Assembly: GCA_010671905.1 (NCBI GenBank)
Contig: JAAHII010000001.1
Coordinates: 4,030,001-4,094,000 of the forward strand
DNA from: Leptolyngbya sp. SIOISBB
GTDB taxonomy: Bacteria; Cyanobacteriota; Cyanobacteriia; Phormidesmidales; Phormidesmidaceae
Direction: 5' to 3'
Length of the DNA: 64,000 bases
Below, one piece after another: positions 50,041 through 54,862 of the stretch; position 1 is the stretch's first letter; every line of letters begins with the position of its first letter. The translations under genes were made by a program, and so were the position numbers. Below the pieces are notes generated by a model. The model was not told the DNA's origin and ran no database searches. It saw only the letters and a list, made by a program, of their open reading frames with translations.

Positions 50041-51510
50041 TTAGAAAATCGATACCGTTGCATCAAAACTGATACCAAAAAATGTGTCATCAAACGTAAT
50101 ACGACTCTCTGATGAACGGCCTGTACTCAGGCCCCCAAACAACGACATTCGAACCCCTGGCGTGATGGAATATCGGAGCTGCCCGGTCAGTCGTTGATAG
50201 GTTTCATGGCGTGACTGCTGAGTAAAATCAGAAATCGTCAAGCGATAGCCGATGCCAGCGTCCCACTGGGGAGCAATTTGATATCCCAGATATCCGCCTA
50301 CAGAATTCAGGACATTGCTAAAGCGCTCTGGATCGCTAAAAAAGATTTGTCCTTGGTAATAACTATCCAAGGTGAGCTGGGGGGTTAGGCGATCGCGACG
50401 TCCGACGGTCAACTCCACGCCTGTGTTCGTGAAAAACTGATCGATAAAGCCTTCATCGTAGAGCAGTTGTTGGCTCAAGCTGAACTGACCATACACGCGC
50501 TCAGAAAACCGGTGACGGACTCCCGCTTGGAAGCGCAATTCGTCGTAGCTAGAATTACTTTGTTCCTGGTATCGCAGAAAAGTGGTACGAGCCACTAGCA
50601 GTAAATTGGTGTCTGGCCCTAATGCGGGAAATGCGGTGATGCTAATGCCCGGGCGAATAAAATTATCGCTAAACCGTCCTTGGACTGGATCTTCCACCAG
50701 GAAAATATTGTCGCTACTAGATGCCGTGACAAAAGAAGAAAGATAAACCACGGGGCTACGCCGAGGCGGCGGGGCAATCTGTCGCAGTTCGATAATGCCT
50801 AGTTCTGGATCCTGGAGCGGATTTCGCAGTTGGATCACCCCTAGCTCGTCATCGCGACGCACTTCCGCCACTTGGATGACCCCCAATTCCGGATCTTGAG
50901 GCATTTCTGCGGCTGTGTCGTCAGGGCTGACTGGCTTGGTTGTGGGAGCCCCTAATCGATTCATTAAGGGGGACGCCACGGTAGGTTGATCCGTCAACGC
51001 CCCTGGTGTCCCTAGAAAACGGCTGAGTAAGGGAGTGACACTTTTGGGTGCTTTTTTGCTCGTATGAGGTTTTGCTGATCTGCTCTGGTCATCGCTGTTG
51101 GTTTTCAGCTCTGTCGCAGCCATCTCGTTCGCCTGGTTGGCAGGTTTGACAGATAGTAAGGAGACGGTTGCAGCAGACTGAAACCCATTCTGGGATTCAG
51201 ATCGGTTTCCAGAATTAGCAATCTCTTTCGGGGGCGATGGTTGATGTCGACTCTGAGAAACGGAAGACGAATTGAGAGCTTGATCAACCTCTAACCTGGC
51301 TAAAGACTCATGCCGTGCAGTTGGGCGCTTTAGAAACTCCGTTGCCTGCACTGGGTTTTCCTGCGGGTGAGCGTCCCAGTTGTTTGTCGTTTCCAGAGAC
51401 GCTTCCGGCACTTGAGCCTGGGCCGCTGGTGCTAACCCTACAACTAACAAGAACCCACAGAGTCCCCAAGATTTAAACCAGTAGAGATGGTTGACCACGA
51501 ATGGCTCCAC
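50041..51510 (-). CDS. Outer-membrane beta-barrel protein with DPELG repeats
   Basis: The 489-residue product has a signal peptide (cleavage about AAQAQ). A long polar, disordered region follows (about 35-200). Three repeats of D(P/D)ELG(V/I)I(Q/E) lie at about 207-245 (DPELGVIQVAEV, DDELGVIQLRNP, DPELGIIELRQI). The last about 240 residues are alternating beta-strands (LTPQLTLDSYYQGQIFF) ending in SIF with a terminal Phe, typical of outer-membrane barrels recognised by BamA. Similar repeats occur in cyanobacterial envelope proteins. It faces two FecR-domain genes on the opposite strand. Confidence 0.78.
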   Translation of the reverse strand: MEPFVVNHLYWFKSWGLCGFLLVVGLAPAAQAQVPEASLETTNNWDAHPQENPVQATEFLKRPTARHESLARLEVDQALNSSSVSQSRHQPSPPKEIANSGNRSESQNGFQSAATVSLLSVKPANQANEMAATELKTNSDDQSRSAKPHTSKKAPKSVTPLLSRFLGTPGALTDQPTVASPLMNRLGAPTTKPVSPDDTAAEMPQDPELGVIQVAEVRRDDELGVIQLRNPLQDPELGIIELRQIAPPPRRSPVVYLSSFVTASSSDNIFLVEDPVQGRFSDNFIRPGISITAFPALGPDTNLLLVARTTFLRYQEQSNSSYDELRFQAGVRHRFSERVYGQFSLSQQLLYDEGFIDQFFTNTGVELTVGRRDRLTPQLTLDSYYQGQIFFSDPERFSNVLNSVGGYLGYQIAPQWDAGIGYRLTISDFTQQSRHETYQRLTGQLRYSITPGVRMSLFGGLSTGRSSESRITFDDTFFGISFDATVSIF

Positions 51511-51793
51511 AAAATAATGCAGCTTGAATTTTCTGATTTAAGAACTGTTGCCGGTCATGGGGATGCATCGATCGCCTCATCCTGACAATCGCCCCACAAT
51601 GCCGTTGAAGTTGAAATTTAGGTCAGAAAGTTATCAAGCAATGAACTAAGCGGACAATCGAGACAGGGAGACTCACGGGAACAGAAAGCTTGCAATACCT
51701 TTGCTGCTTGTAACTATCCAGACTGTTTGTCAATTGTGTAGGTTGCAGAACAAGGTGTGCTTAGAATTGAGGATAGTGAAGAATTGGATGTAG
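51511..51793. other. Divergent promoter region, barrel protein and FecR1
   Basis: The 283 nt lie between divergent starts. No operator-like inverted repeat was identified. Confidence 0.35.
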
Positions 51794-52951
51794 ATGCCTA
51801 TGAGCCAATATCACCTTCGATGGGCCAGACTGGCAAGCCTAGGATGTTTCTTCTCTAGTGCGATCGCGCCAATTTCGGCACAGGCAGCTGTTCCGTTAAC
51901 ACAAGCCGATCTTCAGACATTCCGTAACCGCGTCGAGATTTTGCTGCGAGGAGGCATGGTTCGGCCGGTTCGCCCTCAGGACCGCTTGGGCTTGGGCGAC
52001 GCTATTCGCACGAACTTAGGAGCGCAGGCAGATTTGCAGCTCAATGATGGCTCCTTTGCGCGCATCGGCGAGTTGACGACTTTTTGGTTTGTCCCTAATA
52101 CCCGTGACTTGCGGCTAGCTCAAGGGACAGTGATTCTGACGCTGGCTCCCAACAGTGGAAACAGCAGTATTGAAACTCCCAATGCCATCACGCAGGCACA
52201 AAATACGGCCGTGATTGTGCGTCATGTCAGACCTGGTGGCTCAGCTTTGTCAGCTGTGGTACCAGGATCAGATGATACTTTTCAGGAGACGGATGGACGC
52301 ACCGCAGTCATGGTTTTGACCGATAGCGAGGATGCTGACGTCCAAGTCAGTGTCCGAAATGGGCCTGGCGTCAGCCTATCAGGGGGGCAAATGGCCATTG
52401 TCGATAATGACAATCTCTATCTGTTTGAATTCGACCTTGCTCTTTTTCATCAGTCTAGCCCCCTTGCCCAAGGCCTCTTTCTAGATTCAGAGCACTCTGA
52501 AGGTCGTGATGTAATCGACCCAGCGACAAGTGATGAGAGGCCGTCTCAGCCAGAGTTTGCTGGAGATTATTGGCTCGACCCTCAGTTTTTGTCTCCTGGT
52601 GGTGATGCCACCGTTGATGGTGGTTGGTTATTTCCGGTGAGTGCTGAAGGTTCCACTCCTGCTGCAACGGAGGCAGAGGCAGCGAGCTCTGATGAACCCA
52701 CGATCGTGGTTCCTGATGTGGTTGAGGGGACGACGCACAACAGCGTGGAGGTAGAAGTCGAATTGACGCCTACTCCAGCCGATACCCTGACGTCTGAAGA
52801 AGAACTCCCATCACCGAATCAACCCAACACTGAGAATTTGAATGTTCCAGCAGGTGTGATTGTTCCCTCGATCGAGGGGAGGACTCCAGGGGAGGTGCCT
52901 GCAGAGCCTAACAGCCCACCTCCAACCAGTGAGCCTCCGACTGGTTCCTGA
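51794..52951 (+). CDS. FecR-domain exported protein 1
   Basis: The 385 residues start with a signal peptide (cleavage about AQAAV). A FecR-type domain follows (about 40-210): LGLGDAIRTNLGAQADLQLN, DGSFARIGELTTFWFVPN, and the iron-regulator-like VILTLAP strand pair. The C-terminal half is acidic and Pro/Glu/Thr-rich. In this cyanobacterial subset the FecR fold is periplasmic and not tied to a sigma factor. About 60% of its core matches the second copy at 53507. It is divergent from the barrel gene. Confidence 0.8.
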   Translation: MPMSQYHLRWARLASLGCFFSSAIAPISAQAAVPLTQADLQTFRNRVEILLRGGMVRPVRPQDRLGLGDAIRTNLGAQADLQLNDGSFARIGELTTFWFVPNTRDLRLAQGTVILTLAPNSGNSSIETPNAITQAQNTAVIVRHVRPGGSALSAVVPGSDDTFQETDGRTAVMVLTDSEDADVQVSVRNGPGVSLSGGQMAIVDNDNLYLFEFDLALFHQSSPLAQGLFLDSEHSEGRDVIDPATSDERPSQPEFAGDYWLDPQFLSPGGDATVDGGWLFPVSAEGSTPAATEAEAASSDEPTIVVPDVVEGTTHNSVEVEVELTPTPADTLTSEEELPSPNQPNTENLNVPAGVIVPSIEGRTPGEVPAEPNSPPPTSEPPTGS

Positions 52952-53506
52952 CCTCAATATGCTCTGCTGCTCCAGAGGCACTGATTGCTCCTCATTGTGG
53001 ATTTTCAGTTTTTGACCACTCATGCCTGCGCACATATCCTCGGCCAAAAAAACTCGATGCATTACAAATCTCATCCTTTCTTTGCAAAAGAACTCACAAG
53101 ACACTCATCTGTAAGGTTTTGATGAAGTAAGGGCTTAAAGCGTGCTTGTAAAGGAAAAGTGGCTCAATCGCAAGGAATTTCTTCCGGTAGTTTATGAAGT
53201 TTTCGAGAAGATATCTCAGGTGCTTATGAATAAGCGAGAAAGCGCGGGTAGGTTATAGTTGGAATTACTGAAAAACTTACAACGAGCTTGACCGTAGTTG
53301 GTCGATCTGAAGTTAGCAATAGTTAAAGTTTCTATAAATTATTCAATTGTCAGTGTTCCTGAGGTGTCGCCGCCCCGCGTTCTACCTGAATCCCGTATCT
53401 CAAGTTCAGAGCATGCTCTGATTTGTGATCTACTGGCACTCTGAGCTTTGAGCAAGTTTCAAGCTGTTTGGTGAAAGTCCTAGATTTAGTCGATTTTCGA
53501 AAGCCG
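52952..53506. other. Intergenic region between the two FecR genes
   Basis: About 550 nt without a recognised gene. The stretch is AT-rich near 53090-53350 and holds no clear inverted repeat. It must contain the promoter for the second FecR gene if the two are not co-transcribed. Confidence 0.4.
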
Positions 53507-54862
53507 ATGATTATGAGTCACTTTTTACGAATGCCATCGCTGAAGCTGATCAGCCTGTCAGGTTTGATGTTGGGTCTGGCGAGTGTACTCAGCGGGTCGC
53601 CAGCTCTGGCAGAAGTGCCTTTGATGCGGGCTGATATCGAATCGATGTACAACCAGGTAGATCTGATTCCTGAAGGACAGGATGCTAGACCTGCCCGCCT
53701 GAATGACTGGCTGTCTGTGGGTGACGCTCTGCGAACGGCTCTGGGCGCAAGGGCTGAACTCCGGTTTAATGATGGTTCTCTCGCGCGAGTGGGTGAGCGG
53801 GCGACATTCTGGTTTGTGCCTAATACCCGCGACTTTCGTCTGTCTAATGGCACGGCTTTATTTTTGATTCCGCCGGATCGAGGCCCTAGCAATATTCGTA
53901 CGCCCAGTGCTGTGACAGGTATTCAGGGCACTGCGCTGGTTGTTCGCCATATTCCTTTGCCTGATTGTGACCCTTCGGCGATGCCATCCGGAGAGTCCGT
54001 TTGTCCAGGCCGAACTGTCGTCATGGTCCTGACTGATAGTCCTAAGGGCCCGGTCGAAGTGACCGCTAGCAATGGCAACTCAGCCAGGCTCTCAGCGGGC
54101 GATTTGGCAGTGGTGGAAAATGGCGCCATTCAAGTTTTGGAATTTAATCTCCAGTTGTTTTACGAGACGAGTCCCCTTGTTGAAGGCCTTGATTTAGATA
54201 ACCCTGACTTTGAAGGGACCGGAATGCCGACTGATCCGGTGCGACAAGAGACCTGGGATGGTATTCAGTCTCAAACTGACTTTGCCGGGAGTTTCTTACT
54301 GAACCCTGATTTGATTGGGCTTGATGCTCAGGTGGGGGTGGCGACTAATTGGTTGTTGCCAGCTAATGACGTCGGTGGCACGTTGCTTGCCAATGGTGTG
54401 ACAACAAATCGTATCGGTAATGTGGGCCGTGTCGATAATCAAATGTCCGCTGGGCAGTCTGAGCCTCGTGCCCTGATGTCTGCCTGGTTTACCAGAACGT
54501 TATCCACCTTAGATGCACCTCAAGCATCGGTGCCTGGTGTGGTTATTCCGGCTGGTTTAGGGCAATCGCCAACACCCGCCACCCCGGTGATTCGACCAGT
54601 GGCTGGAGCCCCTGTCCCTGCTGCTCCCCAGCCGGTAGCGCCGACTCCTCCTGTGCCAGTCGAACAGCCTGCCGAGCCGCCGGTTGAGGTTCCCGTTGAA
54701 TTGCCGGTTGAACCACCGGTTGAACCACCGGTTGAGGTTCCTGTAGAGCCGCCCGTTGAACCACCGATTGAGGTTCCTGTAGAGCCGCCTGTCGACCCAG
54801 ATCCAGATCCGATGCCGCCGGTTGAAGAGCCTGTTGATCCGCCCTTTGATCCAGGTGGTTAA
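53507..54862 (+). CDS. FecR-domain exported protein 2 with Pro-Val-Glu repeats
   Basis: From ATG 53507 (451 residues; ATG 53513 and TTG 53468 are alternatives) the protein has a signal peptide ending near SPALAE. It has the same FecR fold as its neighbour (LSVGDALRTALGARAELRFN, DGSLARVGERATFWFVPN). A central region and a C-terminal tail of about 90 residues follow, dominated by PVE(P/V)PVE repeats. The tail probably spans the cell wall or binds peptidoglycan, as such repeats often do. The pair looks like a tandem duplication with later divergence. Confidence 0.82.
   Translation: MIMSHFLRMPSLKLISLSGLMLGLASVLSGSPALAEVPLMRADIESMYNQVDLIPEGQDARPARLNDWLSVGDALRTALGARAELRFNDGSLARVGERATFWFVPNTRDFRLSNGTALFLIPPDRGPSNIRTPSAVTGIQGTALVVRHIPLPDCDPSAMPSGESVCPGRTVVMVLTDSPKGPVEVTASNGNSARLSAGDLAVVENGAIQVLEFNLQLFYETSPLVEGLDLDNPDFEGTGMPTDPVRQETWDGIQSQTDFAGSFLLNPDLIGLDAQVGVATNWLLPANDVGGTLLANGVTTNRIGNVGRVDNQMSAGQSEPRALMSAWFTRTLSTLDAPQASVPGVVIPAGLGQSPTPATPVIRPVAGAPVPAAPQPVAPTPPVPVEQPAEPPVEVPVELPVEPPVEPPVEVPVEPPVEPPIEVPVEPPVDPDPDPMPPVEEPVDPPFDPGG

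Follow-up and report, generated by a model that had tools for sequence, protein, structure and literature searches.

The locus lies near the right-hand part of the window, by which we mean the whole stretch of 64,000 nucleotides analysed here, taken from a cyanobacterial source genome of 8.3 Mb; its features are collected in Table 1. An earlier note, made from the sequence alone, had described three genes there, an outer-membrane barrel protein with three DPELG repeats and, divergent from it, two secreted FecR-domain proteins. This description holds, and the coordinates are confirmed. The barrel protein is laid out as a signal peptide, a variable linker of ∼170 residues, the DPELG repeats, and a 12-strand barrel that ends in Phe. 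On its other side the barrel gene adjoins a gene for an RDD-HEAT-pentapeptide-repeat fusion protein (47571 through 49814, minus strand), which is not among the widely recurring neighbors of the pair in relatives.

Table 1. Features of the barrel-FecR locus (window coordinates)
Feature	Position	Strand	Details
Outer-membrane barrel gene	50041..51510	minus	ORF list; AlphaFold2 model; weak Pfam matches
12-strand β-barrel, residues 255-487	50050..50748	minus	AlphaFold2 model
DPELG repeat 3 (DPELGIIELR), residues 234-243	50782..50811	minus	Barrel-adjacent copy, kept in nearly all orthologs
DPELG repeat 2 (DDELGVIQLR), residues 220-229	50824..50853	minus	
DPELG repeat 1 (DPELGVIQVA), residues 206-215	50866..50895	minus	
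Divergent intergenic region, 283 bp	51511..51793		Presumed promoter region for both arms
FecR1, secreted FecR-domain protein	51794..52951	plus	PF04773, 31.6 bits; FecR domain ~51998-52225
FecR2, secreted FecR-domain protein	53468..54862	plus	PF04773, 34.7 bits; FecR domain ~53723-53947
Pro-Val-Glu tandem repeat, FecR2 tail	54677..54789	plus	

The AlphaFold2 model of the barrel protein (input of 43 sequences; all models are of single chains) has 12 long strands, most blocks of which reach a pLDDT of 91 to 98, and a C-terminal Phe; the repeat segment is disordered. A Pfam search returned weak OMP_b-brl and DUF2490 matches. When compared with the BBP2/OMP_b-brl profiles, the window barrel falls under the cut-off (21.2 vs. 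28.7), and the barrel of one family member, L212, exceeds that of BBP2_2 (27.5 vs. 23.7). The resemblance to BBP2_2 (PF10082) and OMP_b-brl (PF13505) is one of weak-to-moderate profile similarity across the last strands of the barrel, whereas the definitions of those families include neither a DPELG leader nor a constant FecR partner. The PDB contained no usable sequence match for the barrel family or for the FecR family. Structural matches of the barrel are generic, with TM-scores of ∼0.5; they comprise the autotransporters EspP, Hbp, NalP, and EstA, as well as the porins and export channels OmpG, KdgM, and the COG4313 channel.

Both FecR proteins score above the PF04773 gathering cut-off of 24 bits and, by eye, have N-terminal signal peptides and no lipobox. 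The TTG start of FecR2 is probably wrong, translation more likely beginning near 53531 (MPSLKL...). Fold matches of the FecR2 model include the PupR cell-surface signaling domain, FecR-like anti-sigma domains, and BDI_1681. The name and fold of the domain would suit classical FecA-FecR-FecI iron signaling with a sigma factor elsewhere in the genome, a reading that the earlier note had dismissed for want of a sigma factor or a TonB receptor. Our analysis bears out that dismissal: the genes scanned at 35.8 through 63.4 kb include neither an ECF sigma factor nor a TonB receptor, and the 12-strand barrel, with its disordered leader, has no Pfam match to a TonB-dependent receptor with STN and plug domains. 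PF04773 is the only domain found in FecR1 and FecR2; the cytoplasmic N-terminal anti-sigma domain with its transmembrane helix is absent, there is no DUF4880 match, and a signal peptide stands where the cytoplasmic anti-sigma segment would be expected. Being exported by their signal peptide and lacking that segment, the window FecR proteins cannot act like E. coli FecR. Iron or sigma signaling is ruled out on domain content, and we regard it as extremely improbable even with a distant sigma factor.

Across cyanobacteria, barrel and FecR are almost never found apart. Among 59 relatives, the barrel is present in 39, and FecR2-type proteins (at least 60 bits) occur in 38 of those 39 and in none of the others. 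A FecR gene adjoins the barrel at 39 of 40 testable loci in the relatives and, in named genomes, at 41 of the 43 loci that could be tested, two sets that overlap in species; the named carriers are Leptolyngbya-, Nodosilinea-, Halomicronema-, Phormidesmis-, and Moorena-type cyanobacteria. For a sample of the whole class, drawn evenly and comprising 146 genomes, FecR lies within the neighborhood limit of 4 kb at 52 of 56 barrel loci, with 38 divergent pairs, 14 co-directional pairs in which FecR comes first, and no other arrangement. By genome, 53 have both genes, 1 the barrel only, 2 FecR only, and 90 neither. Three of the four exceptional loci (G123, G128, and G075) fit contig breaks, because their FecR matches lie within ∼0.5 kb of a contig start; the fourth, the MAG G038, is genuine, having a barrel and no FecR in the genome. 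As the species are related, these counts are not independent and relatedness would inflate any p-value; the counts themselves are what matters. Co-location and co-occurrence together rule out a chance neighborhood; the survey of DPELG-barrel and FecR pairs suggested by the earlier note reveals a conserved, co-inherited unit.

Phylogenetic trees of the two families agree with this. Four genomes (G010, G012, G020, and G029) carry a second, diverged pair, whose barrels (L098, L101 through L103) group as one clade with 100% support in the barrel tree and whose FecR genes do likewise in the FecR tree; the matching clades indicate joint inheritance of barrel and FecR. The presence of two FecR genes in the window goes back to a duplication that its genus and the neighboring genome G012 also have. 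In L074 and L075 the two FecR genes in tandem are placed with each other in the FecR tree and, from this placement, look like an independent duplication. For Moorena bouillonii PNG (L147) a true loss of FecR is an unsafe reading: the contig is probably chimeric, as its upstream genes (1 through 5514), one for an ECF sigma factor among them, seem to be of Bacteroidota type. Nor do we claim a FecR/barrel gene overlap in L212, which depends on a TTG start. The source genome also has a solitary FecR2 paralog without a barrel (8481 through 9773 of L106, at ∼7.41 Mb), with two GTPases of the MMR_HSR1 type next to it, one of which weakly matches DUF697; orthologs in two sister genomes similarly have no barrel alongside.

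The repeats that precede the barrel are spaced by 14 residues (starts at 206, 220, and 234). A whole-genome search located the exact DPELG DNA pattern only within the barrel ORF, ruling out DPELG as a common motif in the source genome. The pattern D-[PD]-E-L-G-[IV]-[LI]-[RQ]-[LVI]-R, counted in 80 distinct barrels, occurs 123 times, compared with 0.1 expected in shuffled leaders. It is present in 69 of the 80, with one to four copies each, and in nearly all of these the last copy is 251 to 296 residues from the C terminus, directly ahead of the first strand. Of the 11 barrels that lack a match, five are fragments or truncated, and others hold degenerate forms (e.g., ESELGEIRII). To judge from sequence, a docking motif would be expected to take this form, a short peptide kept while the disordered leader around it varies. 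FecR is the presumed docking partner because it is the sole constant neighbor; the DPELG segment could instead bind the wall, BAM, or another protein.

The C-terminal tails of the FecR partners are Pro-rich, mostly poor in Lys and Arg, and very divergent in sequence, with lengths ranging from almost nothing past the domain to more than 400 residues. The earlier note had read the Pro-Val-Glu repeats of one window FecR protein as suited to span the wall. FecR2 does end in a repeat rich in these residues, but its sequence is not kept in relatives, most of which retain only the Pro-rich composition, and a conserved wall-spanning motif is ruled out. Such a low-complexity, usually Pro-rich tail in most partners would be in keeping with a threaded plug, in which the FecR domain stays in the periplasm and the tail runs through the barrel to the surface, plugging the barrel and reporting surface conditions. 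The 12-strand autotransporter barrels among the structural matches favor this arrangement, and in RcsF a sensor is already known that threads through the lumens of OMPs (PMC4942254). Two faint similarities point the same way: a "cell surface anchoring domain" (PDB: 5ix9; E = 6.9e-3) is a weak match of the FecR2 model, and FecR1 has a sub-threshold match to the LapA retention module (NF033682; 18.5 bits, cut-off 50). The spread of tail lengths is, however, odd for a required lumen plug, the FecR proteins have no visible lipobox, and the barrel matches are generic. We consider threading unlikely; FecR as a surface plug or gate of the barrel, as the earlier note had it, is possible and probably an incomplete reading.

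A third partner, missed by the earlier note, is visible only in relatives. Clustering of the genes around all barrels identified one recurrent extra neighbor, a transmembrane receptor in which CHASE2 is joined to either a Ser/Thr kinase or a class III cyclase. Of 37 genomes, 19 have a CHASE2 gene no more than 1.6 kb from the pair, vs. 0.76 expected from CHASE2 density (∼25 times chance), and one adjoins the pair at 9 of 20 further loci; both effector types occur, and the gene is found on either side of the pair. The co-directional order CHASE2, FecR, barrel is seen in L208, L211, L212, L214, and L217, and the CHASE2 protein is a kinase in the two that were checked (L212 and L217). About half of the loci, the window pair included, have no adjacent CHASE2 gene. 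Given this and the abundance of CHASE2 genes (17 in the source genome and up to 31 per genome in the set examined), the assignment of a partner in the source genome is indirect. In sister genomes a cyclase abuts FecR2, and its ortholog in the source genome (69% identical) is located 21 kb to the right of FecR2, past the window (4105607 through 4107565 of the source contig); we infer from this orthology that the distant cyclase may be the partner of the window pair. Two other FecR genes of the source genome also adjoin CHASE2 genes.

Further signaling genes were noted. The window encodes a CHASE2-domain protein of 540 residues (11934 through 13556, minus strand) in which no Pfam effector domain follows the CHASE2 part, and a multi-PAS/GAF histidine kinase of 2286 residues (37150 through 44010, plus strand) that overlaps the preceding PAS-only ORF. 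In L074, a Ser/Thr kinase-TPR protein without CHASE2 (6292 through 8193) directly adjoins the barrel, an arrangement shared by L075 and L116; it is a possible alternative output.

The CHASE2 neighbors might also reflect co-regulation only. In that case the barrel would be a porin or exporter, which FecR would help to assemble, anchor, or gate from the periplasm, and neither would take part in signaling. The matches of the barrel to OmpG, KdgM, and the COG4313 channel would fit such a role, as would the loci, about half, with no CHASE2 gene within reach. Against it stand the strength of the CHASE2 linkage, its extension to two effector types and to both sides of the pair, and the resemblance of the FecR fold to known signaling domains. 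We hold this account to be unlikely; a transport or scaffold role without signaling could apply, chiefly at loci that lack CHASE2.

Since barrel and FecR are almost never apart and are often beside a CHASE2 gene, they are probably the outer half of an uncharacterized sensor that relays signals across the cell envelope. We somewhat favor a reading in which barrel, FecR, and CHASE2 kinase or cyclase are cognate parts of one envelope-spanning sensor, with the DPELG leader docking the periplasmic partner. The 12-strand barrel would be seated in the outer membrane, and the FecR domain, with its disordered Pro-rich tail, would act as a soluble periplasmic sensor or adaptor. The conserved peptide ELG-[IV]-[LI]-R-[LV]-R, within the barrel's flexible periplasmic leader, would serve as the docking segment, most likely for the FecR domain. 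FecR would then relay the barrel's state (ligand, or outer-membrane or wall stress) to the periplasmic CHASE2 domain of the inner-membrane enzyme, whose Ser/Thr kinase or class III adenylate cyclase would produce the cytoplasmic output. The physical contacts among the three proteins and the direction of the signal are those that we infer.

Such a chain would resemble FecA-FecR, RcsF-OMP, and Sinorhizobium NsrA in its logic. As in FecA-FecR-FecI and PupB-PupR-PupI, an outer-membrane barrel extends at its N terminus into a periplasmic segment, and the periplasmic partner has the FecR fold; unlike them, the window system is without a TonB-dependent receptor, STN domain, transmembrane anti-sigma factor, and sigma factor. 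In the Rcs phosphorelay, a sensor protein on an outer-membrane barrel likewise reports to an inner-membrane kinase (PMC4942254), but RcsF is a lipoprotein that uses general porins, whereas the window system has a dedicated barrel and a non-lipidated FecR, for which threading is hypothetical. NsrA of S. meliloti, an outer-membrane barrel acting upstream of the CHASE2 cyclases CyaK, CyaD1, and CyaD2, similarly ties a β-barrel to inner-membrane CHASE2 signaling (PMC13001267, PMC7529298). Compared by description only, NsrA looks unrelated to the window barrel and differs in its size (∼1200 residues, with the barrel in the second half), and the available portions of those reports describe no FecR partner.

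An exported FecR-domain protein is genetically linked to a CHASE2 receptor in Campylobacterota, whose clusters combine a CHASE2 adenylate cyclase, a phosphodiesterase, a FecR-domain protein, and a TPR protein (PMC9239204), and in the BiofilmReg operon of Burkholderia, where a LysM-FecR protein accompanies a CHASE2 histidine kinase (PMC5192318). These systems differ in their effector enzymes and accessory genes and in the LysM domain on the Burkholderia FecR, and no dedicated DPELG barrel is described in the available parts of either report. Precedents exist for each half of the chain, FecR with CHASE2 and outer-membrane barrel with CHASE2. A survey of cyanobacterial kinases lists CHASE2 kinases and, in the part available, leaves FecR unmentioned (PMC2176072). 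In the literature as far as it was accessible, the combination of dedicated barrel, FecR, and CHASE2 was not found, in cyanobacteria or elsewhere. The locus is best filed under FecR/CHASE2-type envelope signaling, as a variant with a dedicated, motif-bearing barrel.

The CHASE2 partner in relatives turns what the earlier note had suggested as a surface complex into trans-envelope signaling. More tentatively, we propose that a trans-envelope sensor widespread in cyanobacteria joins a dedicated 12-strand barrel, a periplasmic FecR protein, and a CHASE2 kinase or cyclase. FecR would be held on the DPELG peptides, its Pro-rich tail crossing the wall or the barrel, and FecR cell-surface signaling would here have shifted its output from sigma factors to Ser/Thr phosphorylation or cAMP. 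We know of no outer-membrane input described for cyanobacterial CHASE2 receptors, and our literature search found none. If the proposal is true, the cognate barrel-FecR pair would be such an input, FecR signaling would operate without sigma factors, and the question of the ligand would become testable, with the DPELG peptide as a precise target for a binding test.
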